Part shown: piece by piece, positions 25,709-51,705 of the stretch | Layout of the letters: the number at the start of each line of letters is the position of its first letter | How positions within the stretch are numbered: the first letter of the stretch is position 1 | Assembly: GCA_031292575.1 (NCBI GenBank) | Contig: JARLGX010000008.1 | Location: 214,028-278,027 of the forward strand | DNA from: Paludibacter sp. | GTDB taxonomy: Bacteria; Bacteroidota; Bacteroidia; Bacteroidales; Paludibacteraceae | DNA length: 64,000 nucleotides | Direction of reading: 5' to 3' | Program-made: the position numbers and the translations under genes | Notes under the pieces: model-generated | What the model was told of the DNA's origin: nothing | The model's database searches: none | Seen by the model: only the letters and a program-made list of their open reading frames with translations

Positions 25709-26917
25709 ATGGGGCAAGTAAAACAAAGTTATATTGAAGCAGAAGAAAGAGGTTTTAATGATCCTCCAGAAAAACTTGTTTGCGCAAATCATTTTGATGA
25801 TCCTGCAATTAAAAGATATATACGATCTAATTCAATTAAAGGAACTTGGAAGTGTGATTACTGTAATAAAAAACATAAAGTCGTAGATTTGTTATCTGTT
25901 GTATCATTTATTAATGATAGAGTAGGCAGATATTTTGGAGACATCAACAATCAGGATTTATATCTGGCTTCTTCATTTGAAATTGAAGATGATGAACCAT
26001 CGGGTTTTGGTTTCTACGATGCTTGTGGGTATGCTATGCCTAAAGGAAGGCATACCTACTCTTTCGAAGAATTAATTTTTGAAACCGACCTTGATATAAA
26101 TAATTTAAAATTAAGTGAAGATATTTCGGAATGTTTTTGGGATAAAACATACTGCCTAATTGAACCATTTATTAGTACTGAATCTGAAGAATTGTTATTC
26201 CGTTGGAAGGATTTTTGTAATACAATAAAGCATTCACGTCGTTATACGTTCTTAAAAACCTTAGAGGTTTCGAATAAAAAGTCATCAGAAAACGGATTAG
26301 AAGATATACTTACTGAAATTGGAAAGGCAGTTGAAGAAGGCCATTTGATTAGAATAATAGACTGCGATTCGCAAATATACAGATGTCGAGTCCACAATAA
26401 GGATGAAAAAGTTGATCGTTTTGAGCATCTTGCATCTCCTCCTGATGAAAGAGCAAAGCAAAATAGGATGAGCCCAGCAGGTATATCAATGTTTTATGGT
26501 GCTTTTGATGAGAAAACAGCGATTATTGAAGTAAAAAGTGGAATGGATGATACACCTGATTCAATTACAACAACAGCCATTTTTAAAACAAAGAAAAAAC
26601 TGAGAGTAATCGACTTTACAGGGTTACAAAATAAAATTAGTTATTATGAAGATTACAACTATTATATAATTGAGTTTCTGAAATCATTCGTAAATGGGAT
26701 TGCACAAAAGATTATCCATGATGACAGAATTCATATCGAATATATACCGACACAAATTATTACAGAGTATTTCAGATACATTTTTAAAGCTAATAGAAAC
26801 CATAAAGTTGATGGACTAATATATAGAAGCTCAGAAAATAAAGGAGGTAAGTGCTGTGTTTTATTTTTAGACAGAAATAAATGCCCAGACTACATGTACC
26901 TATCAAGCATAATTTAA
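25709..26917 (+). CDS. HEPN/RES N-terminal and RES domain protein
   Basis: A 402-residue protein. Residues 1-110 contain VCANHFDD and a CDYC pair followed by KKHKVVDLLSVV, the pattern of the HEPN/RES N-terminal domain found ahead of RES domains. Residues about 215-400 form the RES domain: IYRCRVH with the conserved Arg, NRMSPAGISMFYGAFDEKTAI with the second conserved Arg and the Ser-Phe-Tyr region, and IIEV with a Glu. RES proteins of Xre-RES toxin-antitoxin systems break down NAD+. No Xre-like antitoxin gene sits next to it, so this large HEPN/RES form is probably self-contained or controlled otherwise. It is divergent from the SIR2 operon. Confidence 0.82.
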   Translation: MGQVKQSYIEAEERGFNDPPEKLVCANHFDDPAIKRYIRSNSIKGTWKCDYCNKKHKVVDLLSVVSFINDRVGRYFGDINNQDLYLASSFEIEDDEPSGFGFYDACGYAMPKGRHTYSFEELIFETDLDINNLKLSEDISECFWDKTYCLIEPFISTESEELLFRWKDFCNTIKHSRRYTFLKTLEVSNKKSSENGLEDILTEIGKAVEEGHLIRIIDCDSQIYRCRVHNKDEKVDRFEHLASPPDERAKQNRMSPAGISMFYGAFDEKTAIIEVKSGMDDTPDSITTTAIFKTKKKLRVIDFTGLQNKISYYEDYNYYIIEFLKSFVNGIAQKIIHDDRIHIEYIPTQIITEYFRYIFKANRNHKVDGLIYRSSENKGGKCCVLFLDRNKCPDYMYLSSII

Positions 26918-31106: not shown

Positions 31107-32021
31107 TTACTTCACTTTTAATTCGTTGATAACTTTGGCACGTACCAGATCTTCATTCTCAATGGTGAACGACTGGTGGCGCCCCCCATTTTTCTCGTTC
31201 AAGTCTACTACCAATTGCTTGTCATCGGGAATGGTGAATTTATCCATTGCAAATACTGTACACTCATCTTTCTTTCCGGCTACACGGATAGCATAGTTGT
31301 AGGCGCGAAGCGGGAAAATGACCTGTTCCTGTATGGCAGTGCGTTTAGCAACTTTTTTATCTACGATTTTGAACGTGATAAAATCCACGTCAAACGGTAC
31401 GTTGGAAGAATTTCTAATCTGTGTGTGGAAGTATAGCAGCCCGTTGTGGGTATAAATCCCTTTCAGCAGGTACTGGATACCGAAACGTTTGCAACCGATG
31501 TGTTTCACCTCGCGCTTGTCGTTCTTGTAGATGGATTTCATAATCATATGCACCAGCATTGGGCTCTCACTTCCCAGTTCTTTCAGGTAGATTTCCATTG
31601 CATTATTCGGACGATTCACTTCCTCACCATCATGGATAAAGTCGGTCATTTCTACATTCAAGAGTAATGGCTCATTGGCATACTTTACGTTGAAAGTGTA
31701 GAACGAGCCATCTTCAGTAATCACCGAGAGATTGGTCTCCTGCCGGAAATTCTTTACTGTTGCTTTCACCCGGATTACATTTTCAGCTCCGTCCGCCTTA
31801 CCTGCAATCAGGTTAGGAGAACCTAAATCGACATAGCGCACCGCCGAAGGGAAGATGATGTGTACTGTCTTATCGTAAGTCACTTCCAGCCCGCGAGGTG
31901 GAATCATACGGTCAAACGTTAGTTTTTTAGTCAGACCTTGGTAAAGGTCACCTGTTGTTTCTTGTGCATGTACTGCAAACAGGCTCATCATAAGAGCCAT
32001 AGTTAATAAGAACTTTTTCAT
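31107..32021 (-). CDS. traN: Conjugal transfer protein TraN (DUF4138)
   Basis: A 304-residue periplasmic protein with a signal peptide (MKKFLLTMALMMSLFAVHAQ). The sequence around KLTFDRMIPPRGLEVTYDKTV, IKVKATVKNF-like strands and GCKRFGIQYLLKGIYTHNGL matches TraN of CTnDOT-type elements, a likely VirB9-like component of the type IV secretion core that contacts the outer membrane. A motif CCACTAAAATCC-like sequence (32030-32043) lies just upstream, as at several other tra genes. Followed by traO. Confidence 0.87.
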   Translation of the reverse strand: MKKFLLTMALMMSLFAVHAQETTGDLYQGLTKKLTFDRMIPPRGLEVTYDKTVHIIFPSAVRYVDLGSPNLIAGKADGAENVIRVKATVKNFRQETNLSVITEDGSFYTFNVKYANEPLLLNVEMTDFIHDGEEVNRPNNAMEIYLKELGSESPMLVHMIMKSIYKNDKREVKHIGCKRFGIQYLLKGIYTHNGLLYFHTQIRNSSNVPFDVDFITFKIVDKKVAKRTAIQEQVIFPLRAYNYAIRVAGKKDECTVFAMDKFTIPDDKQLVVDLNEKNGGRHQSFTIENEDLVRAKVINELKVK

Positions 32022-32075
32022 TTTATTTGTGGATTTTAGTGTTTGGGTCTAAAGACCCGTTGTTAATAATAGAAT

Positions 32076-33443
32076 TTAATTTTCCGGTTGGTATAGCATG
32101 ACCTTACATCCGGCTTTCAGGTGCACCTTGACGGTGTGCATTTTCTTGGCGATATACTGTGAAGTACCTTGAATAGCTCCTTTACCTAAATCGGAAGCCA
32201 GTTGTGCTCCTGCATTAGTCGAGATATTAATACTGCTTCCGAGTGAAGACCCCATGTTAGCGGCTACTTCTTTGATGGCACTGGACTCCATTGAATTGGG
32301 GATAAAAATACCTTCCTGTCCGTCATTATCGAATACCGACAACTCGACAGGGGTAATTGTTCCTGCGTATTCAAGGGAAGTGATGGTGATGTTCAGCCTT
32401 TCGCCTTGTATCTTTGCAGCACCGATAATAATGGCATTGCGTGGTATAACGGTTCCCCTTACATTCATCGGTTCCAATATCCGCAGACGAACGGTTTGTC
32501 CGTCAGTCAAGGTTTGATCTCCGTGTATGCACGCTGCAATTGTATTCTTTTCCTGTGAGATACTGTTACCAACAGCCGTGTAAAAGCCTACATTGCGCGA
32601 TTGGGAATAAGCAGTTATAAATGCTGTGTCACTCAGCGGTTGGGCAAGAGCTGATACAAGTTTTGTTGTGACCTGTGTGACAGGAGTTATTGCTGTTTTC
32701 CCATTTGCTGTATTTCCATTGCGTTTTTTCTCTGAATGCACCTTTTCACCGGAGGAGCTTGTCTGCACCGGTTGCCCGGCTTGTCCTGAAGGCATATATT
32801 TTGCTGCCAACTCATAGGATTTTTCAAGCAGGGCAACCTGATCATTCATGGTTGATTTCGGAGTTTCCTGTGAAGCCAGACGTTTCTCCAGTTCATCAAT
32901 ACGCTGTTGAAGTTCCTCCTTTTTGGAATCCTCTTTCGGCGAGTCATAAAAATTACCCAGTGTGCGGTTCATGGTCTGGTAAGCGGCTGTGGAGGACAAT
33001 ATAGTCTGTCGGGGGCGGTAACTTCCTCCACCAGTAGAAGTATATGCCGGTTGTTTCCCCGTTTCAGCATTTGTCAAACCAACACTTTTTTCAGATGCTT
33101 CTTTTTCGTTACCAAATAAAGAAGCGAGGTCTTGCATTGTACTGTTACGTTCTTTCTGCTTATCCTCCATTTTAGCATGTTCGTAAGCTTTTTGCTTATC
33201 GCCAATAATACCGGTATCGGTCGGGAGTGGCATGTCCGTGTTGAATTTCTGACCCTGCTCTTCCTTTTTCTTGTCTTTAGCGGACGGAGCAAAGATTAGC
33301 CACATTGAACCAGCAAAAAGCAGGAACATAAGTGGATACACCAGCATTTTCTTGCGTTTTTGACGCTGCTCTTCCGTCAAGGTCTTTTCAGGCTTTCTTG
33401 GTGTAGTTGAAGCCTTGTCTAACTTGTTTTCTTCCATAATCAT
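32076..33443 (-). CDS. traM: Conjugative transposon protein TraM
   Basis: A 455-residue inner-membrane protein with one N-terminal helix (MLVYPLMFLLFAGSMWLIFA) after a charged cytosolic tail, a long low-complexity and coiled-coil periplasmic linker, and a C-terminal VirB10-like beta domain (about residues 265-450) with IAACIHGDQTLTDGQTVRLR and ALGSSINISTNAG-like segments. TraM is expected to span the periplasm and link the inner and outer parts of the mating channel. Its ATG overlaps the traL stop (ATGA), which supports the start at 33443. Confidence 0.88.
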   Translation of the reverse strand: MIMEENKLDKASTTPRKPEKTLTEEQRQKRKKMLVYPLMFLLFAGSMWLIFAPSAKDKKKEEQGQKFNTDMPLPTDTGIIGDKQKAYEHAKMEDKQKERNSTMQDLASLFGNEKEASEKSVGLTNAETGKQPAYTSTGGGSYRPRQTILSSTAAYQTMNRTLGNFYDSPKEDSKKEELQQRIDELEKRLASQETPKSTMNDQVALLEKSYELAAKYMPSGQAGQPVQTSSSGEKVHSEKKRNGNTANGKTAITPVTQVTTKLVSALAQPLSDTAFITAYSQSRNVGFYTAVGNSISQEKNTIAACIHGDQTLTDGQTVRLRILEPMNVRGTVIPRNAIIIGAAKIQGERLNITITSLEYAGTITPVELSVFDNDGQEGIFIPNSMESSAIKEVAANMGSSLGSSINISTNAGAQLASDLGKGAIQGTSQYIAKKMHTVKVHLKAGCKVMLYQPEN

Positions 33444-33706
33444 ACTATTTTATAAGCGTTGATACTATCTTGCTTCGAATGCAAGTCTAACTGTTTGATA
33501 TGTTCTATCTCTATTTGTTGACCGTCATTTTTGCCAATACGGTAAAGTGCTGTCCCGAGCGTGGAGAAAGCACATATTGCAAATAAGGTGAGGAGACCAA
33601 AGACGACGACAAGCCTCATTTTAGGTGATAAGCTCTCCAATTTACAGCGCAGTCGTTCATCCTGTCTGTTTCTCCAATTCTTAATACATTTTATTAGATT
33701 TTTCAT
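33440..33706 (-). CDS. traL: Conjugal transfer protein TraL (DUF3989)
   Basis: An 88-residue protein with a basic, tryptophan-containing cytosolic start and one transmembrane helix (RLVVVFGLLTLFAICAFSTLG), followed by a short periplasmic tail. Size, position between traK and traM, and sequence match DUF3989/TraL. It overlaps traM by 4 bp and follows traK by 2 bp. Function in transfer is not known beyond membership of the inner-membrane complex. Confidence 0.82.
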   Translation of the reverse strand: MKNLIKCIKNWRNRQDERLRCKLESLSPKMRLVVVFGLLTLFAICAFSTLGTALYRIGKNDGQQIEIEHIKQLDLHSKQDSINAYKIV

Positions 33707-33708
33707 CT

Positions 33709-34332
33709 TTATCTCTCCTGTGTTTTTAAATCCTTGTTTTCAAGAATGGTGAATCCTTCGATGGTGAACCCATTGGGATTATTGTCACTACGGGTGGCAT
33801 TCAGCAGATGACAGGTCGTTACAAGGCTTCGTTCTGTTACGTTGCTTTCACGGATAATCATTTGTCGGGCATAGGTATTGACCAAATAAGGGTAGCGATC
33901 AAAGTTGCAGACCACACTATCCACCTGAACTACCTGATTGATATTGCCGGCAATAATGCGGTTATAATATCCTTTCTCTACAAAGTCACTGTAGTAGTTG
34001 TATGCACTTTTATCAGCCAATAGCAAAGCCCGTTTTATATTATTGTCAATGGCACTCTTATCGGGAGACAGCGTGAAAAATAGCTCGTGAAAGCGGCGGA
34101 CATGTTCTCTTGCTTCCGCAGGACGGTTTTGAGAAAGATCTTGCGAGAGGGCAAGCATCAATGATTTGCCACCGTCCAGCACGTATATCTTTTCACGCTG
34201 TTTCTGCGCGAACTCGTAGGAACTCCAAACGGAGTATCCTACGATAACGGCACATAGGGAAACGAAAACGATTCCGAACAAGCGTATTTGCCTGAAACTT
34301 GTTTCGATGTTCTTTAAACTTTTAAATTCCAT
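33709..34332 (-). CDS. traK: Conjugative transposon protein TraK
   Basis: A 207-residue VirB8-like protein from the ATG at 34332, which gives the family start MEFKSLKNIETSFRQIRLF. In-frame upstream ATGs at 34362 and 34347 would add a repetitive KFKNM-type leader. One transmembrane helix (GIVFVSLCAVIVGYSVW) is followed by a periplasmic domain with NRPAEAREHVRRFHELFFTL, the hallmark of TraK. VirB8 homologues are nucleation factors of type IV secretion channels. Confidence 0.88.
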   Translation of the reverse strand: MEFKSLKNIETSFRQIRLFGIVFVSLCAVIVGYSVWSSYEFAQKQREKIYVLDGGKSLMLALSQDLSQNRPAEAREHVRRFHELFFTLSPDKSAIDNNIKRALLLADKSAYNYYSDFVEKGYYNRIIAGNINQVVQVDSVVCNFDRYPYLVNTYARQMIIRESNVTERSLVTTCHLLNATRSDNNPNGFTIEGFTILENKDLKTQER

Positions 34333-34383
34333 ATTTTTGAATCTCATATTTTTATATTTCATACTTGTTTTGTTTTTCCCTTT

Positions 34384-35397
34384 TTACTTTTTCAGTAGAC
34401 GACCGGCTACATTACCGGTCATAGCCCCGGCTACACTTCCGGCAACACCCCCTGCACGATTAGCTGTCTGACCGATATTACGTCCGTAGCTGCCCATTCC
34501 ACCGGCTTGAATAATCCAACCGGAAACGGTCGGTATGGTGAAATAGCCGATAATGCCAATGATCATGAATATAATATATACACTATTACTGGCATCGATG
34601 GAGTAATTGGGGTTATTTTGTAATTCCGAAATATCGTTTTGCAGCATCAACACTTGTATTTTAGCCAATATACTGCTGAATAAATCTGATACGGGTAGCC
34701 ATAGATAAACCTGCACATAGCGGCAGATCCATTGTGTGAGCGTACTTTGAAATCCATCCCAGACAGAAATGGCAAAGGCTATCGGTCCGAGTATCGCCAA
34801 TACGATAAGAAAGAAGGTACGGATGGTATCAATCACCAGGGCGGCAGCCGCAAATAATAATTCCAATACTTCTCGGAAAAAATCCCGGATAGACTTTTTC
34901 ATGCTGTACATTCCCCGTTCGATATACATTCCCGCCATAGTCACCACATCCTCCGGTGACCAGCCAAGCTCGTCCAATTGCTTATCGAACTCCTCGTTAC
35001 TGACCAGATAAGCCGTTTCCGGGTTTCGCATCATGGATTCATATTCCAATTTGTCTTTCTGTTCCCTGTATTTGTTCATATCAAAAGTCTGACTTTCGAG
35101 CAGTTGGTTCGTTCCCTGTACAATGGGACTTAATACCCCGTTAATCGTTCCGAGCACAATAGTTGGAAAAAACATAATACAAAAACCTATCGCAAACGGA
35201 CGTAACATCGGATACACGTCAATCACCTCGGCATGGGAGAGTGATTGCCACACCCGTACAGACATATAAAACAGGGCTCCTAATCCTGCCACGCCTTTTG
35301 CCACCCCGGACATATTGGAGCAAAGTGGCATCATCTCCGTATACAGTGAGCGAAGAATGGTGTGCAGGTTATCAAAATCAATGGTTAGTAGCATCAT
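34384..35397 (-). CDS. traJ: Conjugative transposon protein TraJ
   Basis: A 337-residue polytopic inner-membrane protein with several hydrophobic helices (for example VLELLFAAAALVIDTIRTFF, and IIFMIIGIIGYFTIPTVSGW) and a glycine-rich C-terminal tail, as in TraJ/VirB6-like proteins of CTnDOT elements. VirB6-type proteins form part of the DNA path through the inner membrane. It lies 3 bp downstream of traI and 21 bp upstream of traK. Confidence 0.88.
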   Translation of the reverse strand: MMLLTIDFDNLHTILRSLYTEMMPLCSNMSGVAKGVAGLGALFYMSVRVWQSLSHAEVIDVYPMLRPFAIGFCIMFFPTIVLGTINGVLSPIVQGTNQLLESQTFDMNKYREQKDKLEYESMMRNPETAYLVSNEEFDKQLDELGWSPEDVVTMAGMYIERGMYSMKKSIRDFFREVLELLFAAAALVIDTIRTFFLIVLAILGPIAFAISVWDGFQSTLTQWICRYVQVYLWLPVSDLFSSILAKIQVLMLQNDISELQNNPNYSIDASNSVYIIFMIIGIIGYFTIPTVSGWIIQAGGMGSYGRNIGQTANRAGGVAGSVAGAMTGNVAGRLLKK

Positions 35398-35400
35398 AAA

Positions 35401-36030
35401 TTACCAATATCTATCGTTATTACTTCCATAAAGAGCCAATATCCTTGACGTATCATTTTTCTTTTTCGCCCGCAAGTAGCTAACCGAAATATTCTTGTTA
35501 GTGTAGTAGGTAACCAGGTTGCGGTAGCGTTTTGCCGAGTTGTAGCATTTGTCTATCACGTCCATGCGTTCCTTATCGGTCATTGAAAGTGTGGTGATGT
35601 TGACTACGTCTTTCATCTCTTTCAAGACATCATTGCTCTCTTCCAGTAGTTTCGTGTAGCCAAAGGCAATGGCTCCTAATTCCTCTACTGTATAGTTATC
35701 GTCCCGCAACATCTTTTGGAAGCTATTCACATAAACATCCGAGATCTCTCCAATCATCAGGATGGTTTGTTGCACCTTGCGGGCATCTTTGATCAGGTTA
35801 TTTACGGACTTCAATGCGTCGTAATACTTCTTTCCCTGATCATAGATTTTCACCGTTTGCTGAAAGTTCGACAACATATTTTTTGCCGTGGTCGAAGTCT
35901 CTACAATTTGTTTTGTGGTGTTGATAATCCCCTGTGCGAGATTCGTGGGATCGGTTACGACCCATTGTGCGCTTGCTTTTCCTGTGAAGAGCAGGCACAA
36001 ACTAAAAATGATCAAAATTTTTGTTTTCAT
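35401..36030 (-). CDS. traI: DUF4141 domain protein (TraI)
   Basis: A 209-residue secreted protein with a signal peptide (MKTKILIIFSLCLLFTGKASAQ). The mature part is mainly alpha-helical (VVTDPTNLAQGIINTTKQIV, then QQTILMIGEISDVYVNSF), matching DUF4141/TraI of Bacteroides conjugative transposons, a VirB5-like periplasmic or pilus-associated component. The conserved 13-bp motif described under 'tra-gene motif' lies 8 bp upstream of the start. Confidence 0.83.
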   Translation of the reverse strand: MKTKILIIFSLCLLFTGKASAQWVVTDPTNLAQGIINTTKQIVETSTTAKNMLSNFQQTVKIYDQGKKYYDALKSVNNLIKDARKVQQTILMIGEISDVYVNSFQKMLRDDNYTVEELGAIAFGYTKLLEESNDVLKEMKDVVNITTLSMTDKERMDVIDKCYNSAKRYRNLVTYYTNKNISVSYLRAKKKNDTSRILALYGSNNDRYW

Positions 36031-36054
36031 ATTCTTATGGATTTTAGTGGTTGA

Positions 36055-36420
36055 TTATTGTTTTACACCGACCCGGGTATAGTCCCCATGCGGTGAGAAG
36101 GTCAGTACATCTGTCGCCTCGTTATAGGCGATCTCGATACGAAACCCCGTGTTGATAAATAAATTACCGTTTTCTTCCTTTAGCAAGAAAGTTTCCGGTC
36201 GAAGCGTTCTTGTAATGCCCGCACGCCTGAATATCGTGACTTTATAGATATTCCCTTCGCAGAATATCACTACATCGGGCTCGCCATTCACGCTTACCCA
36301 ATTGCCACATAGTTTATCACGGTTGGTTTCTTTTGCAATACTGCAGGCTTGCAGCAATAGGACTGCTACGCCTACGAAATAGATGCTCAATAAGAGCAGC
36401 CGGTTTTTACTGTAATTCAT
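36055..36420 (-). CDS. DUF3876 lipoprotein (TraH-like)
   Basis: A 121-residue lipoprotein with a hydrophobic leader and the lipobox LLLQACS. The mature domain (DKLCGNWVSVNGEPDVVIF, ETFLLKEENGNLFINTGFRI) is a small lipocalin-like beta domain matching DUF3876, found between traG and traI in CTnDOT-type clusters. It may sit in the periplasm or on the outer membrane. Its role is unknown. Confidence 0.78.
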   Translation of the reverse strand: MNYSKNRLLLLSIYFVGVAVLLLQACSIAKETNRDKLCGNWVSVNGEPDVVIFCEGNIYKVTIFRRAGITRTLRPETFLLKEENGNLFINTGFRIEIAYNEATDVLTFSPHGDYTRVGVKQ

Positions 36421-36446
36421 ATGCTTTCGTTTTAAATGGATTTATA

Positions 36447-38954
36447 TTATGCTTTGTCTTTCCTGCTTTCGGCAAGCTGTTTGATAGCCGCTTCTATATC
36501 TCCACCGAGCTTTTCGGCAAGATTCAAAACCTCCATCTTCTCCGTTTCTTCGGTGGTGTACGCGAGATATTCTTCAGCACTAACTTCGGTTGCATAGACG
36601 GCAGATTGAGTGCCTCCCAAACCGATCCAAACCTCTTTGTAAAGCCTTGAGGGGTGATTAGCCATATTGATAGAGAGTATCTGTGACTTTTCCTTTTCCG
36701 TCAGCCCGAGCAATGCCTGTATCTGGTCGAACTTGTTCATGTACTTGCGCTGGTCGAGAAGGATCTTACAATCACTGTTGTTGATGATACTTTCCTTTAC
36801 CACGGGTGAACTGATAATGTCGTCCACTTCCTGCGTTACCACAATGGCTTCTCCGAAATACTTACGAACAGTCTTGTACATATATTTCAGGTATTCAGCC
36901 ATGTTGGCGGATGCAATGGCTTTCCACGCTTCCTCAACCACCAATTGTTTCCTCACACCTTTCAGCCGGCGCATCTTATTGATAAAGGCTTCCATGATAA
37001 TGATAGTCACTACCGGAAAGAGTTCTTTATTTTCCTTGATGGCATCAATTTCAAAGACAATAAACCGTTTAGATAGCAGGTCGATGTTCTTGCTTGAATT
37101 GAGCAGAAAATCAAACCGTCCGCCCTTGTAATATTGCCGTAGCGTAGTGAGCAGGTTGTCGACATTAAAGTCTTCTTTATTGACTTTAATATCCCTTTGG
37201 TCTAATCCGGTACGATAGATGTCCCGCATAAAATCATAGAAAGTATTGAAACACGGAGTAATACTCCTGTCGGCTTTTATCTGCTCGATATAAGCTGTTA
37301 CCGCACTTCCCAACTCGCCTGATTCCGTTTTGGATATTTTCTCGTCCTCGCTTTTCCAAAGGGTTAACAACAAAGTTTTGATACTGTCTTTCTTTTCTAC
37401 GTCGAACAGATAATCATCAGTATAGAACGGATTGAAGGAAATCGGATTCTCTTCGGTATAGGTAAAATAAATACCATCTTCACCTTTTGTTTTTTGATGG
37501 ATCATCTCACACAATCCCTGATAAGAATTACCTGTATCTACGAGTAGTACATGTGAACCTTGCTCATAATACTGTCTGACCATATGGTTCATGAAGAACG
37601 ATTTTCCACTACCACTTGGTCCCAACACAAATTTATTCCGGTTGGTAATGATTCCCTTTTTCATCGGTAGATCGGAAATGTCCAGATGCAAGGGTTTCCC
37701 GCTGATACGGTCAACCATTTTTATCCCGAACGGGCTGGGTGAACTTCGGTAGTTTGTTTCTTCCGTAAAGAAGCATAAGGCTTGTTCGATGAAGGTGTAA
37801 AACGATTCTTCCGCAGGGAAATCCGCTGCATTCCCCGGAATGGCTGACCAGAAAAGTGCCGGACAGTCCACGGTGTTATGGCGCGGTGTACATTCCATGG
37901 ATGCCAATTGACTGCCCACATCATTTTTGATGTGTTTCAATTCTTCCCTATCATCACTCCATGCCATGACATTAAAATGTGCCCGAATGGAAGTAAGACC
38001 GTAAGAGTGTGCTTCATTCAGATACTCGTCTATCCATTCCTTGTTGATAGAATTACTCCGGCTATATTGGGAGAGTGACTGCATATTGCGGGCAGACTTT
38101 TCAAAGCGTTGCAAATTCTCTTCGCTGTTATCAATAAACAAATACTGGTTGTACAGGTGATTGCTGGGAAGAAGGAGTCCGACAGGACTTGCAAACGACA
38201 AACGGCAATCACTCCTGTCAGTTGAAAGCCGCTCGTAGCGGGTATCTGTTGCCACATGACCCGGCAAGTCCTTTACATCGGAAAGTGTATGCAGACACAA
38301 TAAATTATCACCTATACGCATTTCCTCTGCTGAAAGCGATATGTCCTGCAAACAGGTGGTATTCTCCAGTGAGAGCGAGAAGTATTTTTCAATAAGTCCG
38401 GCAGTAGCATCCGTTCCTGTTATCTCATTGGCTGAAAGTCGATGAAGGCGAATAAAACCACTATCGTTCATAATGCGCTCAAACTGTTCGCAGGCTTCAA
38501 TAAACTTTCCCGTTATTTCCTTATCCCTGATTTCTTTGGGAATAATAAAGCCCCTGCATAGTGTGTTGAAATTGCTTTGCTTGCGGCTACGTTCTTTCGT
38601 CGTTTTTGTCAGGAATAGGAAACAAGAGTGATTCAGATAAGGTCGTTCATTGAAATGACGTTCAAAGGAACGGCTTAAAAAACTCATATCCTCTTTTTGA
38701 AGTTCTGCTTGATAATGTCCCTTGACAAACCAATCTTGTTTGTGCACGATCGAAAAATCGGGTAACACCTTTATGGCTTTGCACCAGGCAGCATGTATAG
38801 CTTCATATTCTGCTGAAGTCACCGTATATAATTCCGGCAGTTCTACCCGAAAGGCTACCGTGATGTCAGCATCTTTGGAAATAATGCAGTCATGTTCGAC
38901 GGCCAGCAGCGGAAATTTACTTTCCAGCGTAGCAGCTTTTACTGTATTTCTCAT
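36447..38954 (-). CDS. traG: TraG family conjugation ATPase (VirB4-like)
   Basis: An 835-residue cytosolic or membrane-associated ATPase that powers assembly of the mating channel. The Walker A motif GPSGSGKSFFMN is near residues 444-455, and VVEEAWKAIA with the conserved acidic pair is the Walker B region. The N-terminal half (about 1-400) is the CagE/VirB4-type domain with ERHFNERPYLNHSCFLFLT. Length and order match TraG of CTnDOT elements (a VirB4, not a VirD4 despite the name). Its ATG overlaps the traF stop by 4 bp. Confidence 0.93.
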   Translation of the reverse strand: MRNTVKAATLESKFPLLAVEHDCIISKDADITVAFRVELPELYTVTSAEYEAIHAAWCKAIKVLPDFSIVHKQDWFVKGHYQAELQKEDMSFLSRSFERHFNERPYLNHSCFLFLTKTTKERSRKQSNFNTLCRGFIIPKEIRDKEITGKFIEACEQFERIMNDSGFIRLHRLSANEITGTDATAGLIEKYFSLSLENTTCLQDISLSAEEMRIGDNLLCLHTLSDVKDLPGHVATDTRYERLSTDRSDCRLSFASPVGLLLPSNHLYNQYLFIDNSEENLQRFEKSARNMQSLSQYSRSNSINKEWIDEYLNEAHSYGLTSIRAHFNVMAWSDDREELKHIKNDVGSQLASMECTPRHNTVDCPALFWSAIPGNAADFPAEESFYTFIEQALCFFTEETNYRSSPSPFGIKMVDRISGKPLHLDISDLPMKKGIITNRNKFVLGPSGSGKSFFMNHMVRQYYEQGSHVLLVDTGNSYQGLCEMIHQKTKGEDGIYFTYTEENPISFNPFYTDDYLFDVEKKDSIKTLLLTLWKSEDEKISKTESGELGSAVTAYIEQIKADRSITPCFNTFYDFMRDIYRTGLDQRDIKVNKEDFNVDNLLTTLRQYYKGGRFDFLLNSSKNIDLLSKRFIVFEIDAIKENKELFPVVTIIIMEAFINKMRRLKGVRKQLVVEEAWKAIASANMAEYLKYMYKTVRKYFGEAIVVTQEVDDIISSPVVKESIINNSDCKILLDQRKYMNKFDQIQALLGLTEKEKSQILSINMANHPSRLYKEVWIGLGGTQSAVYATEVSAEEYLAYTTEETEKMEVLNLAEKLGGDIEAAIKQLAESRKDKA

Positions 38955-39277
38955 TCTTCTTTCTTTTTAGTGGTGAATAATCGGGAGAGTTTGCGTCGAT
39001 TGATAATGTACTTGGGATGGCTTTTGGAAGCAGCTAATTTCATCAAACCGTGTTCACCGTATTTAGTATTCAGGGCAAAGGTCTGCCACACCAATACTGA
39101 TGTTGCGAATACTCCGAAACCGATACAGAACCACTGGCTAATGCCTATCAAGTACATGATCACAAAGAGCACAAAGATGGCAAGTAACCCACCCACGAAG
39201 ATGAACAGGTATTGTGCTTTAAGCCCTTTGAACTCGACTGAACCTCCAATCCCTTTGTTGATTGAATACTCTGCCAT
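38951..39277 (-). CDS. traF: DUF4133 membrane protein (TraF)
   Basis: A 108-residue protein with two adjacent hydrophobic helices (YLFIFVGGLLAIFVLFVIMY and WFCIGFGVFATSVLVW), a VirB3-like topology, and a basic C-terminal tail. The opening SINKGIGGSVEFKGLKAQY is characteristic of DUF4133/TraF. It overlaps traG by 4 bp and follows traE by 4 bp, consistent with coupled translation. Confidence 0.85.
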   Translation of the reverse strand: MAEYSINKGIGGSVEFKGLKAQYLFIFVGGLLAIFVLFVIMYLIGISQWFCIGFGVFATSVLVWQTFALNTKYGEHGLMKLAASKSHPKYIINRRKLSRLFTTKKKEE

Positions 39278-39281
39278 AATT

Positions 39282-39578
39282 TTAGAGAAAGAAGGAGCGC
39301 AGGATTGTTGCCGCTACGATTAAGAAGATACAGGCACCAAACCAGCTTGCCGCTGTTTTCGATGTGTCGGGATCTCCGCTGGAAAATTTACCATAAACTT
39401 TTACTCCTCCAATGAGACCAACGACGGCTCCGATGGCATAGATGAGTTTGGTTGCCGGATCAAAGTAGGAAGAGACCATACTTGTTGCTTCCGTGATTCC
39501 TGCCGTGCCATTGCCCTGGGCAACGGCTGCTACAGCCAGAAGAAGGGCTGCCGATAAAAGAAAGGATTTCTTAGTCAT
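39282..39578 (-). CDS. traE: DUF4134 protein (TraE)
   Basis: A 98-residue VirB2-like pilin candidate: a signal peptide (MTKKSFLLSAALLLAVAAVAQG) and two hydrophobic segments (LIYAIGAVVGLIGGVKVYG and WFGACIFLIVAATILRSFF) separated by a short polar loop. This matches DUF4134/TraE, the presumed major subunit of the conjugative pilus. The 139-bp gap upstream contains two tandem copies of the CCACTAAAATCC-type motif (39637-39662). Confidence 0.87.
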   Translation of the reverse strand: MTKKSFLLSAALLLAVAAVAQGNGTAGITEATSMVSSYFDPATKLIYAIGAVVGLIGGVKVYGKFSSGDPDTSKTAASWFGACIFLIVAATILRSFFL

Positions 39579-39717
39579 AAATAGTTCTTGAGTTGTGCCG
39601 GGTGGTTGGATCGTCCGCCCGACGGATAAATACTGAGAATTTTAGTGGTGGATTTTAGTGGTTCACACTGAGGCTAGCCGTAATCGATTTTCTTCATTGT
39701 TTCTTGTTTTTTTATTG

Positions 39718-42640: not shown

Positions 42641-42702
42641 TTCAACCTGCGGTGGCATTTGAATAGCGGGCTTTTGTCGTGATATTCTAAAATCCAAGTA
42701 AT

Positions 42703-43131
42703 ATGAATGAAAAGAAGAAAAGCAAGCAGGGACGCAACCGCAAGAATGATCCGGCTGTATTCTGTTATATGGTTCGCTTTACCGCCCAGGAACATGCTCG
42801 TTTCCTTACGATGTACGAGCAAGCAGGCGTATATGCCAAAGCAGTATTTATCAAAGCCCGGGTATTTGATGAGGTGTTTAAAGTAATGAAAGTAGATAAA
42901 ACACTGGTTGATTATTACACGCAACTCTCCGCGTTTCATGCTCAATTTCGTGCTGTGGGAGTAAATTATAACCAAACTGTGAAGGAACTAAAGAGCCATT
43001 TTTCAGAGAAAAAGGCAATGGCTTTGTTGTATAAATTGGAAAAACAGACAATGGAACTCGCTGCTTTAAGCCGTCAGATCATTTCACTCACTCAGGAATT
43101 TCAACAACAATGGTCGCAAAAATCAGTATAG
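42703..43131 (+). CDS. mobA: Relaxosome accessory protein MobA (MobC-like)
   Basis: A 142-residue basic protein, with KKKSKQGRNRKNDPAVF at the start and VRFTAQEHARFLTMYEQAG, a ribbon-helix-helix-like DNA-binding pattern seen in the accessory proteins (MobA in CTnDOT naming, MobC in plasmid naming). The C-terminal half is helical (NYNQTVKELKSHFSEKKAM). It would bind oriT just upstream and help the relaxase. It overlaps the relaxase gene by 22 bp. Confidence 0.85.
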   Translation: MNEKKKSKQGRNRKNDPAVFCYMVRFTAQEHARFLTMYEQAGVYAKAVFIKARVFDEVFKVMKVDKTLVDYYTQLSAFHAQFRAVGVNYNQTVKELKSHFSEKKAMALLYKLEKQTMELAALSRQIISLTQEFQQQWSQKSV

Positions 43132-46462: not shown

Positions 46463-47083
46463 TCATTTACGTGCCTGTTCCCGTTCATCATCCAGTTGCA
46501 TCCGGCGGTTCAAACGCTCCCGCATTTTATCAAGATAATAGGTACGACTGTCGTTCTTACGCCGCTTCATATCCACATAGGCACTGTAGCAGTCTTTGAT
46601 TTCAATACCAAATTGAGAACTAATAAAGCCTGCCAATTCGGTAATCGGTGTTTCTCCATTATGAATACTCCGCATTTCAATAAGTCCATAAATGAGTTCT
46701 ACCAACTCGATGGTGCTTCCCGTCCACTGATAAGAAATAACAGGGGATTGATTTATGTTGTCGGATATGGATAGTGGTGGCACTTGGGTTTGCATATGCT
46801 TCAGCGTATGCCGGATAAATGAGAGGGCTTTGCGGGTATAGAGAAAACAAAGGTCTGATTCTTTATTTATATCCAGATTGAGGCGGCAAGTTTCGCATAA
46901 ACTTTGTAATTCAGTTTCCGTGTAGGTCATTGCAAAAAGTAGTTCGTATCTGCTGGCAGTTCCGATACATAAGTCGAATACCGTTTTTATGAAATCACAG
47001 TAAGCACTCGATAACTTGCATTCGTCTTTATCAATGGTTATTTGTCGAAAGAACTCGGTATCTGTCAATACGAAATAGTCCAT
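46463..47083 (-). CDS. rteC: RteC-family regulator
   Basis: A 206-residue cytosolic protein matching RteC, the activator of the excision operon in CTnDOT elements. The C-terminal helical domain has YQWTGSTIELVELIYGLIEM and ETPITELAGFISSQFGI, the winged-helix region; the N-terminal half is helical. In CTnDOT, rteC is switched on by RteB and in turn activates excision genes. None of those excision genes is in the window, so its target here is missing or lies elsewhere. It converges with mobC across a terminator. Confidence 0.85.
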   Translation of the reverse strand: MDYFVLTDTEFFRQITIDKDECKLSSAYCDFIKTVFDLCIGTASRYELLFAMTYTETELQSLCETCRLNLDINKESDLCFLYTRKALSFIRHTLKHMQTQVPPLSISDNINQSPVISYQWTGSTIELVELIYGLIEMRSIHNGETPITELAGFISSQFGIEIKDCYSAYVDMKRRKNDSRTYYLDKMRERLNRRMQLDDEREQARK

Positions 47084-47319
47084 ACTCTTTTCTATTTAAG
47101 ATTACACACTTCATTTTCTCTGCATTCACACATAAGAATAATGACAATGTATATTCCAAAAAAAAGTAATTGTTAATAAAACAACCTAATTATATTGATT
47201 TACAGCACTATAACTTTAAAGATAAATTATTATGACAATTTATTGAATAGTAAAAGTGTAATAGCATCTTACATTTTGTAAAGTTAACTTGTGCCTTCGG
47301 TACAGGACAATGAATCTTT

Positions 47320-47724
47320 TTATTTGATTTTGTGATAGATAAGACAACGGGAAGTGTCTCTTAGTGAAAACTCTTTTGCCAATATCCAATCGGAGGGGGA
47401 GGTGAGGTCAAACAGCTTGATACCGTTTTCTTTTTGATCAGGAAGTATATATAAAATCAGTTCTTCTACCAAATGGTATAGAAAGAGTCCTTTTATCAAA
47501 TCCAATGTTTCGGGGGTGGCTTCTACGAGATAGTTTGTGTTGGAAGATTGCCGTTTTTCTTCCAGCAGGGCAATCAGTGAACTCTCCTTATGCAGCATCA
47601 GGTCTGCACGTTTTTGCAAAGCACTAAAGCCGTATTTAGTGGAACTAATCTGTTTTTCTCTCTTGTTTTCCCGTTTAAGCAGATAGCCATCGGTGGATAT
47701 TGTTGCCACAATTTGTATTTTCAT
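47320..47724 (-). CDS. Small unknown protein, possibly DHFR/RibD-fold
   Basis: A 134-residue soluble protein between rteC and rteB. The start MKIQIVATISTDGYLLKREN and the end (GIKLFD, SDWILAKEFSLRDTSRCLIYHKI) recall the first and last strands of DHFR/RibD-like folds, but the middle lacks clear NADPH-binding residues. Function unknown. It has its own promoter element at 47976-47983 and a long structured leader. Confidence 0.6.
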   Translation of the reverse strand: MKIQIVATISTDGYLLKRENKREKQISSTKYGFSALQKRADLMLHKESSLIALLEEKRQSSNTNYLVEATPETLDLIKGLFLYHLVEELILYILPDQKENGIKLFDLTSPSDWILAKEFSLRDTSRCLIYHKIK

Positions 47725-47983
47725 GCCTCTTGTCTATTTGTAAACATAGTTTCAAGATGCAAAAAGCGTGGAACTCACGCTACTCAACAAAGGCTCTGGT
47801 AAGCCCAAACAGGATAGCGCAAGCCCACGCTATGTCAAAACATAGCATAAGCATCACGCAATAATTCCTGTTTCTAAAATTTACCAGATTTTTGTTTGAA
47901 ACGTCTTGCGAACTTATGTATTATATCTATAACGGGAAAACTCTGTTCACCGTTTAATCTTTCTAATTACGTCGTCAAAGATA
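47725..47983 (-). promoter_or_regulatory. Structured leader with promoter
   Basis: TATCTTTG (47976-47983, minus) would start transcription near 47968, giving a leader of about 240 nt before the ATG at 47724. It contains two perfect hairpins: GCTATGT/ACATAGC with a 4-nt loop (47829-47846) and AGCGTG/CACGCT with a 5-nt loop (47765-47781). The layout resembles an attenuator leader, as known for tetQ in CTnDOT, though no sequence identity is claimed. Confidence 0.45.
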
Positions 47984-48023
47984 CGCATTTATCACGAATC
48001 TCATGGAACATGAAATAGCTTTT

Positions 48024-49313
48024 CTATTCAATTCCATACTTTTTCATTTTTTCATAAAGCGTGGGACGGCTTATTTTAAGCAAGTTAGCAGCCATAGCCT
48101 TGTTGTTCCGGGCTGCATCAAGTGCTTTGATAATATGTTCCCGTTCTTCGTTTTCGGCTTTCAGCGCATAACCATCAGCCGTTACGTGTAAGTCAATATC
48201 CAGCTCTTTCACACCAATGGCATCGTTATCTGCCAATAGCACCGCACTACGTACACAATGCCGTAACTCACGCACGTTTCCCGGCCACCCATAGGCTTGC
48301 ATTATTTTCTGCGTTTCTGCATCAAATCGAATGACTTTTTTGCTGAATTCAATGCAACTTTGTTCCCTGAAGAACTCCGCCAATGGCAGAATATCTTCCC
48401 TGCATTCTGCAAGCGAGGGAACGTTGATGATGAATTCACATAGACGATGGTATAAATCTTCCCTGAAGCGTCCCGTTTCAATCGCTTTTCCTATATGTTC
48501 GTTGGTGGCAGCGATAATTCGTACATTGGCGTTCATTTCCTGTTTGCCTCCGACAGGGCGGTAACTGCGTTCTTGCAAAGCCCTTAACAATAAAGCTTGT
48601 ATCTCGTATGGAAGATTACACACCTCGTCCAGAAACAGCGTCCCGCCACTGGCAGCGTTTAATACGCCAAGTTTGTCATCCATTGCTCCTGTGAATGCTC
48701 CTTTAGTGTGTCCGAAGAACTCCGAAGCCGCCAATTCTTTCGGGATAGCCCCACAATCAACAGCTACAAAAGAGTTACCTGCCCGTGGACTTGCAGCATG
48801 GATACTTCGTGCCACATGCTCCTTGCCTGTGCCGCTGTCTCCCCGAATTAGTACTGACATGTCAGTATTTGCCACTAATTGCGCCCTTCGCTCCATTTCC
48901 CGTATGGCTCTGCTCTCTCGCCGGAAGATCAGGGAACGTTCCGGTTTATTTCTTCGTTGCAAAAGTTCCCTGAGAAGACTGTACAGTTTATCCGGATTTA
49001 TAGGCTTAGGTAGGTAGTCTTCTGCTCCCAGTTTCATGGCTTGTACGGCAGAAGATATCCCGGAGTATTCTGTCATCACGATAAAAGGTATACGAATTTG
49101 TTGTTTATTCATCCATTTTAAAACATCTTCTACACCGTCACCATCGGATAACCGGATATCCGAAAGGATAATGTCTGCATTGGTGGAAGTAATCAGTTTG
49201 CGTGCCTGCACGACAGAACCTGTATGTTCCGTTTGCAGTCCTTTCCGCTCCAGCCAGTTGCACAACATTCGACAGAGAACAACATTGTCTTCGATAATCA
49301 GAATTTTATTCAT
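48024..49313 (-). CDS. rteB: Sigma-54-type response regulator RteB
   Basis: A 429-residue NtrC-class regulator: receiver domain (residues 1-120, phospho-acceptor Asp52 in ILSDIRLSDGDG), AAA+ domain (about 135-365; Walker A GDSGTGKEHVARSIH, GAFTGA contacting sigma-54, and LFLDEVCNLP), and a Fis-type helix-turn-helix at the C terminus (AMAANLLKISRPTLYEKMKK). In CTnDOT, RteB is phosphorylated by RteA and activates rteC. It overlaps rteA by 8 bp. Confidence 0.93.
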   Translation of the reverse strand: MNKILIIEDNVVLCRMLCNWLERKGLQTEHTGSVVQARKLITSTNADIILSDIRLSDGDGVEDVLKWMNKQQIRIPFIVMTEYSGISSAVQAMKLGAEDYLPKPINPDKLYSLLRELLQRRNKPERSLIFRRESRAIREMERRAQLVANTDMSVLIRGDSGTGKEHVARSIHAASPRAGNSFVAVDCGAIPKELAASEFFGHTKGAFTGAMDDKLGVLNAASGGTLFLDEVCNLPYEIQALLLRALQERSYRPVGGKQEMNANVRIIAATNEHIGKAIETGRFREDLYHRLCEFIINVPSLAECREDILPLAEFFREQSCIEFSKKVIRFDAETQKIMQAYGWPGNVRELRHCVRSAVLLADNDAIGVKELDIDLHVTADGYALKAENEEREHIIKALDAARNNKAMAANLLKISRPTLYEKMKKYGIE

Positions 49314-51705
49314 AGACCTCTTTGATCTTTTCTGCTGCCTGCATTGTCAGCTGCTTTCCGGTGGCAATAACCCGGTCTACTGCATTCCGTATTTTTTCGC
49401 TCTTCATTCCATTTTCTTCTGCAAGCACCTGACATAATTCCCTCAGTGGAATATCTACTCGTACGATTTCCCATAATGGAAGCAGATGATGTACCAGTAA
49501 GGTAGTTGCCTGGCAGTCTTCCTTTTCTGTACTTTCCATGAGCATTTGCATATCCTTTTCCGTCTCGCGAATCAGCAGTTTGAGCATCTCTTCTCCGTTT
49601 TGTTCACTGGAAAGTAACTCGGAAAAATTTGCTTGCAAACCGAATTGGTTACTATGTCCCCCTACGCAGCCTTCCACAGCAGATAATAGTTCGGTAATGG
49701 AAAATGGCTTGTACAGACATCCGGCAAATCCGGCAGCTGTGAAATCAGCCTCCCCGAAGTCAACACGGGCAGTTGCGGCAAGCACCGGTATTGTTCTTGA
49801 AGTTCCAATATCAGATGTTCGTAGTAGTTCAAGTAAGTCAAATCCGCTCATTTGTGGCATCTGTATGTCTGTAATAAGCAAATCGTATTCATTATCTCTC
49901 ATTTTCTGTATCAACTCCTGAATGTCTCGGCAAATGTCACAATGTACCCGGGAACGGGTCAGCATATCCCGAGTCATCAAAAGGAGCACGGCATCATTGT
50001 CAATGACCAGTACCCGTATTCTTGCAGGCAATTTAGAAGATAGTGCAACTTCATGTGTGAAATGTTGTTCTTCTGCCACGAGCAAAGGCATCAGAATGGT
50101 AAACGTGCTGCCTTTACCAAGTTCACTTTGTACCTCGATCTTGCCATTTAGTAGTGCAGTAAGCCCTTGAACAATGGCTAGCCCCAACCCGAAGCCTTCT
50201 CGGATTTTAGCGTTTTCCAACCGCTCGAAAGGTTTGAAAATTTGTCCAATCTGTTCTGATGTCAGACCTGTCCCTGTATCTGACACTTCGATGGTCAGTG
50301 TTCCTTCCTGATAACAAAGCCTCAACCGCACCTCACCTTCTGATGTAAATTTCACAGCATTCGAAAGCAGATTTCCTGCTATCTGAATAAGTCGTTCCCG
50401 ATCACCCGTCACCACTGCATCCCCACCAATACATTCAGTACTGAATTCCAATCCGGCTCTATGTGCTATCTCATTGAACTCGGCAGTCAATGTATCTGCC
50501 AGGCTTTTTATCCTGAATGGAGCACTATTGGGTTGTTCCTTTCCCGTATCCAATCGATAGAAATTTAGCAGAGTATTCAATAGGAAGGTCATGTTGTCGG
50601 AAGATTGGAGGATAGTGTCACACAAGTGGGTACGTTTCTCTTTGTAACGTTCGTCTATCAACAATTCTGTGCATCCCCGAATAGCAGTAAGTGGTGCACG
50701 TAAATCGTGGCTCACAGTCAGCATCATGTTTTTACGGGCGCGAAGAAGTTCTTCATTGCTGTGGTTCAACTGTTCTAACTGTATCCGATAGCGATACCTG
50801 TTCTTTAGGTCATGACGCAGGATAAGATAGAGTACAATGGCAAGTAGTGTAGCGCCGATCCCCAGACCGGAAACAAGCAGTAAGGCTTTTTCCTGTCCGA
50901 GTAAATAAGACTCTGTTTTTTCCTTCATTTGAAGTTGTTCAATAATATTGAACTCTGTGATTAAACGGTTGATTTCGCTATTCAGATAAACATTTTGCTT
51001 GTTCAAACTATCCATGTGAGTAAATAATTGTTTATTCTGTTTATCGTGAGTAAGTCGTATCTGATTCGATAGAGAACGAAGTAAGGTATCGGAACGAGCC
51101 TGATTCTTCTGCAGAATAGCTTCATTTTCCGTTTCCGTCTGATCCTGTATTTTTTTCTTGTTTCGGAATAAACCAAGAAAACCTCCGCTCTTTTTCTCGC
51201 TTTTCCCATAGTTATCTCCAATTTGTTCCGCAAGATGTCGCCTATCTTGTTTAGCTTGTTGTATTATGTTGGGTATGTGCTTATTTAGTAATTCATGGGT
51301 GGTCTGTAATTTCTTCAAATCTTTTACGATGGCAAGAATCTGAGTATTTTTAGCTGAAAGCAGAGCTAAAATAGAAGTAATACGATTACGTTGACTTTTG
51401 TTCAATATCTGTTTTTGCAGTTCTTGTAATAATACTGTGACCTTATTTAGTTTTTCCTTGTAAACAGGAAGTTCTTTTTCATCCCAAGCAATCACCTGTC
51501 CGTTCAATTGGGAAATATCAAGTATCTGTAAAGTAATGGCCTCGACCTGTTCTCGTTGGGCCAATGCTTTCTCTGCGCGTTTGTCTATAACTGATAGTTG
51601 TCGGTTTTCTCGGTAGATAAATATTAGAAGAACAAGGAAGAGCAACACGAGTGCTACATAGCCTACGATGATCTTAAGCTTTAAAGAGAGCAATGAAGAA
51701 GCCAT
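49306..51705 (-). CDS. rteA: Hybrid sensor histidine kinase RteA
   Basis: A 799-residue membrane kinase. A transmembrane helix near residues 9-28 and a second near 275-295 flank a mostly helical periplasmic domain. Then come the dimerisation domain with the phospho-accepting His in VSHDLRAPLTAIRG (about residue 331), an ATPase domain (N box GNLLSNAVKF, G boxes SDTGTGLT and GFGLGLAIV), a receiver (DLLITDIQMPQMSG) and an Hpt-like tail with LLVHHLLPLW. It partners RteB. In CTnDOT the operon begins with tetQ; here rteA is first and no promoter box is visible in the 112 bp upstream, next to the chromosomal junction. Confidence 0.92.
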   Translation of the reverse strand: MASSLLSLKLKIIVGYVALVLLFLVLLIFIYRENRQLSVIDKRAEKALAQREQVEAITLQILDISQLNGQVIAWDEKELPVYKEKLNKVTVLLQELQKQILNKSQRNRITSILALLSAKNTQILAIVKDLKKLQTTHELLNKHIPNIIQQAKQDRRHLAEQIGDNYGKSEKKSGGFLGLFRNKKKIQDQTETENEAILQKNQARSDTLLRSLSNQIRLTHDKQNKQLFTHMDSLNKQNVYLNSEINRLITEFNIIEQLQMKEKTESYLLGQEKALLLVSGLGIGATLLAIVLYLILRHDLKNRYRYRIQLEQLNHSNEELLRARKNMMLTVSHDLRAPLTAIRGCTELLIDERYKEKRTHLCDTILQSSDNMTFLLNTLLNFYRLDTGKEQPNSAPFRIKSLADTLTAEFNEIAHRAGLEFSTECIGGDAVVTGDRERLIQIAGNLLSNAVKFTSEGEVRLRLCYQEGTLTIEVSDTGTGLTSEQIGQIFKPFERLENAKIREGFGLGLAIVQGLTALLNGKIEVQSELGKGSTFTILMPLLVAEEQHFTHEVALSSKLPARIRVLVIDNDAVLLLMTRDMLTRSRVHCDICRDIQELIQKMRDNEYDLLITDIQMPQMSGFDLLELLRTSDIGTSRTIPVLAATARVDFGEADFTAAGFAGCLYKPFSITELLSAVEGCVGGHSNQFGLQANFSELLSSEQNGEEMLKLLIRETEKDMQMLMESTEKEDCQATTLLVHHLLPLWEIVRVDIPLRELCQVLAEENGMKSEKIRNAVDRVIATGKQLTMQAAEKIKEVYE

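Follow-up and report, generated by a model that had tools for sequence, protein, structure and literature searches.

Element genes and motif copies in the window

The window, i.e., the whole 64,000-nucleotide stretch of Paludibacter sp. DNA analysed here, encodes on its minus strand traN (31107-32021, TIGR03780), traI (35401-36030) and traE (39282-39578), the last two being open reading frames whose CTn214 homologues are labelled DUF4141 and DUF4134, respectively. The mobA gene lies on the plus strand (42703-43131, NF041324). NCBIfam names in the window are TraN, TraM, TraK, TraJ, TraG, MobA, MobB and MobC, and the mob genes are followed by three minus-strand regulators (46463-51705): an RteC-family regulator (46463-47083, PF09357), an RteB-like sigma-54 response regulator (48024-49313) and an RteA-like histidine kinase (49306-51705), the latter two assigned with Pfam. 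Given the tra and mob names and the RteC-, RteB- and RteA-type regulators, the element is of the CTnDOT type. In gut Bacteroidales, such elements are among the main vehicles of resistance genes, those against tetracycline included; the part of the window's element that was examined showed no tetQ. Towards the element's tra end, the plus strand encodes a protein with an HEPN/RES N-terminal domain and a RES domain (25709-26917), possibly a toxin-type gene.

A further contig of the same genome, C36, holds topoisomerase, DUF1896, methylase/helicase, xis-like HTH and integrase genes. In the closest relative, G001, whose TraN is 96% identical, tra and topB share one 93-kb contig. Since the gene order agrees with that of G001, the tra contig (C28) and C36 probably belong to one element that the assembly broke in two. 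An alpha-L-rhamnosidase-like protein encoded on the element side of C36 (L107:2729-6481) suggests polysaccharide-use cargo on the mobile element.

A short motif recurs before several of the tra genes. The preliminary description listed two copies at traE and one each at traI, traN and traG, and proposed that the motif may be a control signal acting at the RNA level to co-ordinate the operon. The copies at traE, traI and traN stand. On the minus strand, traE is preceded by CCACTAAAATCC (39650-39661), an exact complement of the seed of the small RNA (sRNA) presented below, and by a tandem copy with one mismatch, CCACTAAAATTC (39637-39648), which was seen only in this genome and in G001. The traI site (36039-36050, minus strand) is again an exact CCACTAAAATCC, with the ATG 8 nt downstream, and the traN site (32031-32042, minus strand), ACACTAAAATCC, has one mismatch, with the ATG 9 nt downstream; their computed duplexes with the sRNA have energies of -23.4 and -23.6 kcal/mol, respectively. 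A plus-strand copy absent from the earlier list precedes mobA (42684-42695, ATG 7 nt downstream). This copy, ATTCTAAAATCC, is degenerate with a 9-nt core, CTAAAATCC; the mobA site of G001 is exact. The putative traG copy, TCACCACTAAAAAG (38963-38976), was rejected, given that it lies inside the end of the traF coding sequence and that none of the traG leaders in the 20 elements searched has a site.

A blind count confined to the window puts the motif near chance: the 12-mer with up to two mismatches occurs 10 times (6.8 expected), and the 10-mer with up to one mismatch occurs 14 times (7.8 expected), a count reached in 2 of 100 shuffles. Hence, the case depends on comparative data.

A predicted small RNA between topB and the DUF1896 gene

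Searching the genome itself for the motif yielded two more exact copies in the sense orientation and one antisense copy. The sense copies lie before topB (from C36:27719) and before the DUF1896 gene (from C36:25461), and both are perfect complements of the seed. The antisense copy lies between these two genes, with a terminator hairpin directly 3' of it and, upstream, TATCTTTGCCACTGA, which follows the consensus of the Bacteroides -7 promoter box. These features delimit a predicted sRNA of about 102 nt on the minus strand (C36:25499-25600), in which the seed, GGATTTTAGTGG, is followed at once by the terminator. In terms of what characterizes a trans-acting base-pairing sRNA, the locus has an intrinsic terminator and, as predicted from the -7 box, a promoter of its own, together with complementary leader sites that co-vary with the seed (see below).

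The anatomy of this RNA is conserved. The TAnnTTTG box and the terminator are kept across most relatives, while no clear -33 box was seen, and the predicted length is 84-108 nt in most relatives (about 170 nt in one). In the predicted fold, the 5' end of the sRNA (CCACU) pairs with the seed in a hairpin and hides it; the fold has a z-score of -5.8 in this genome and of -7.1 to -8.4 in four relatives. A model of the sRNA has one strong match in the genome, with 72 bits. An Rfam search returned nothing relevant, with no match for the sRNA locus up to E = 5, and no sRNA adjoins the second DUF1896 copy of the genome, on contig C30. Allowing up to one mismatch, the genome has 26 matches to the motif, against 18 for the reversed pattern. 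Given this excess is about equal to the number of the element's own sites, there is no sign of a chromosomal regulon.

Co-variation of seed and sites among related elements

From 80 TraN relatives, and from searches for DUF1896 and TraN in 28 genomes, 25 pairs of tra and DUF1896 genes on single contigs were compared. The sRNA with its terminator is present in 20 of these 25 elements. Across 21 elements, a complement of the native seed (at most one mismatch) was found in 69 of 123 leaders of mobA, topB, the DUF1896 gene, traE, traI and traN, and in none of 309 leaders belonging to sixteen other genes, which makes the motif significant. According to the preliminary description, the signal it proposed would be refuted if related elements showed no enrichment around their tra starts; the enrichment is present. 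No site precedes traA-traD, so that traE is the first tra gene with one. The distance from site to start is about 4-40 nt at most target genes, and mostly 65-76 nt at traE in the relatives. In elements with the T3 seed, the xis-like HTH genes are also preceded by sites (L232:14186-14482, and 2251 on the minus strand of CTn214, L236), extending the regulon to excision factors.

Genomes G008, G011 and G022 have no sRNA, and their tra operons lack the motif; a seed-like RNA is present in L179 and L181, whose tra genes have no matched sites; G026, a draft assembly, has sites and no sRNA was found in it. In some elements, individual target genes have no site.

The seed varies among elements, and the sites vary along with it: seeds GGATTTAGTGG, GGATTTTTTAGTGG, GGAATTTTAGTGG and GGATTTTTTCAGTGG occur with sites CCACTAAATCC, CCACTAAAAAATCC, CCACTAAAATTCC and CCACTGAAAAAATCC, respectively. 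When seeds were permuted among elements 20,000 times, a test that ignores the relatedness of the elements, the 28 exact seed matches observed compared with a mean of 7.8 and a maximum of 26; with 15 representatives, 21 were observed against a permuted mean of 4.7. Ranked by mean duplex energy among twelve sRNAs, the native one came first for 11 of 12 elements and second for the other. The length of the site follows that of the seed base for base in most elements. The seeds of the sister elements L163 and L173 are one A apart, as are most of their sites, and in elements with the T3 seed the traI and traN sites retain four A, leaving a one-base bulge. Of two elements in a single genome (G017), one combines a T6 sRNA with A6 sites and the other a T4 sRNA with A4 sites. 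On the TopB tree the seed types require at least 11 changes, and the sRNA and its sites changed in step in about ten lineages.

The search that first turned up sRNAs relied on a seed pattern informed by the motif, whereas later model matches used the sRNA alone. The covariance model, built from the 3' half of the sRNA and containing no target information, detected sRNAs in 13 of 295 genomes sampled from Bacteroidales (this genome included), most of them adjoining topB. Three had seeds unused before, and each matched one to two sites on its own contig. The seed of G087:C3, GGATTTTTGTGG, is matched by CCACAAAAATCC before topB and by a one-mismatch site before traE; that of G286:C1, GAAATTTTAGTGG, by CCACTAAAATTTC before both traE and traN; and that of G087:C19, GAAATTTTTGTGG, by a single one-mismatch site, before traN. 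Pairing is not fully exclusive, as the traN leader of G087:C3 has an exact site for the G087:C19 seed. The TopB tree and the model-found sRNAs answer in part the concerns raised by the motif-shaped search and by relatedness.

Our reading is that the motif is, very probably, the target site of a trans-acting antisense sRNA encoded by the same CTnDOT-type element. Chance or inherited likeness without function, for which the non-significant count in the window could be cited, is already contradicted by the comparative data and has practically no probability left, given the leader counts, an observed match unreached in permutations, and newly found seeds that are matched by their own sites. It is exceedingly improbable that the motif is a translation-initiation enhancer, i.e., a Bacteroidota ribosome-binding element, of some tra genes: although its position shortly before most target starts would suit such a role, the greater distance at traE, the empty leaders of the sixteen other genes of the same elements, and the shift of the motif with the sRNA seed all argue against it. 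A site for an element-encoded protein, either a DNA operator or an RNA-binding translational regulator, with the sRNA-like copy as an inverted site, is also very unlikely. Short repeats co-evolving within an element would suit a regulator of shifting specificity as well, yet the complementary copy invariably runs antisense and sits in a folded RNA, between a conserved -7 box and an immediately adjoining terminator, its seed is matched in length by the sites of most elements, and the sites lie inside operons just before starts and are absent from the other leaders.

A different matter is the direction of the effect, which is unreadable from sequence. The sRNA might pair with its targets and activate them, by opening leaders or protecting the mRNA, and the traE site, far upstream and near a hairpin and a leader ORF, would allow for this. 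However, the sites of mobA, traI, traN and the DUF1896 gene overlap the expected ribosome landing zone, and a passage of PMC9299015 reports RteR as a repressor of the CTnDOT tra operon. Activation is thus unlikely, and we infer that the sRNA is transcribed, pairs in the cell and represses its targets. As for the RNA-level control signal of the preliminary description, the strand-specific placement of the sites in mRNA leaders and their co-variation with an element-encoded seed support it. Of the copies it listed, that at traG drops out, and the regulon extends beyond the operon to mobA, topB, the DUF1896 gene and, in some elements, an xis-like HTH gene.

Relation to RteR and the leader of traE

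A small RNA of CTnDOT, RteR, was reportedly described by Waters and Salyers in 2012. In the passages that mention it, RteR is a 90-nt sRNA with a discoordinate effect on tra expression (PMC7366714), and it represses the tra operon of CTnDOT (PMC9299015). The RNA predicted here, mostly 84-108 nt, is on predicted length likewise an sRNA of about 90 nt in a CTnDOT-family element, is trans-encoded, and occurs in elements with tetQ, rteA, rteB and rteC, i.e., G009:C2 and CTn214. Given the same element family, size and effect, it is probably RteR or an orthologue. With sites from traE onwards and none at traA-traD, the discoordinate effect of RteR on tra would be explained. The passages on RteR in PMC7366714 and PMC9299015 contain no pairing sites and no mobA, topB, DUF1896 or xis-like targets, and the literature searched, to which the original RteR paper did not belong, appears to hold no description of a multi-site regulon spanning mob, tra and excision genes. 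CTn214 of B. fragilis shows tetracycline-dependent transmission nearly identical to that of CTnDOT (PMC10865816). In NZ_OR675140.1, taken as CTn214 from its strain name (214_V8GG), its 55.7 kb and its gene content, the sRNA, at 7241-7336, lies unannotated between topB and the DUF1896 gene, and sites precede an xis-like HTH gene, topB, the DUF1896 gene, mobA, traE, traI and traN.

Under the proposed mechanism, the sRNA would start at the -7 box TAnnTTTG, fold so that the seed is masked by the 5' end (CCACU...), and terminate directly after the seed. The seed's pairing partners would be stretches of about 12-17 nt in the topB, DUF1896, mobA, traE, traI and traN leaders. At most of these genes, where the site is close to the start codon (about 4-40 nt), the duplex should keep ribosomes from loading; at traE, it would mostly form 65-76 nt upstream, flanked by a 7-codon ORF and a hairpin. 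One RNA could thereby switch the genes of excision, mobilisation and transfer together; the likely outcome would be their joint repression, traA-traD being exempt. The sites give a direct, testable mechanism for the uneven repression along the tra operon that is reported for RteR, and they would bring mobilisation and excision genes under the same mechanism; the roughly ten natural seed-site pairs lend themselves to the study of sRNA-target co-evolution and of cross-talk between co-resident elements.

FinP has a single target, traJ, opposite which it is encoded. In the FinP/FinO system of F-like plasmids, conjugation is likewise under antisense RNA control (PMC9299015); unlike FinP, the predicted sRNA meets six or more unlinked leaders. 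Multi-target trans-acting sRNAs of the general enterobacterial type use one short seed against many leaders with repeated sites, the seed adjoining the terminator, all of which the predicted sRNA shares. In contrast to them, its regulon is, as far as seen, confined to one mobile element, seed and sites change jointly between elements, and two seeds co-reside in one genome.

The traE leader has further features. Upstream of the traE sites lies a 7-codon ORF, MKKIDYG* (39674-39697, minus strand), and 34 of the 51 distinct traE leaders contain a strictly 7-codon ORF of the form MKxx[DEK]YG*, whose variation is largely synonymous; no leader of the other five target genes has one. The ORF looks translated, and it may sense the state of the ribosome. 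To our knowledge, no drug response of the MKxxDYG* leader ORF has been described. The translational attenuator of tetQ (Wang et al. 2005, as cited in a passage of PMC5418344) is similar in being leader-based translational control in the same element family, and differs in that at traE the MKxxDYG* ORF stands beside an sRNA site. Combining these features, we tentatively envisage a single element sRNA as a post-transcriptional master switch over the element's entire life cycle, with excision factor, topoisomerase, mob and tra genes under it, with private seeds that would limit cross-regulation among co-resident elements, and with a translated 7-codon leader peptide and a hairpin, both reading the state of the ribosome, added at traE; this fuller scheme is possible and, in our judgement, rather less than even in probability.

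The hairpin lies between the sRNA site and the traE start (39597-39625, minus strand). It is conserved, with a loop that includes ATCCA, and compensatory changes occur at 9 of 9 pairs in 26 leaders. A possible loop-loop pairing of the sRNA terminator (loop GGGAUA/C) with the traE hairpin (loop UAUCCA/GAUCCA) suits some elements and fails in those with GGGAA or GGGGAC loops. A stretch resembling the traE-leader hairpin was also found in the traN leader of G087:C3.
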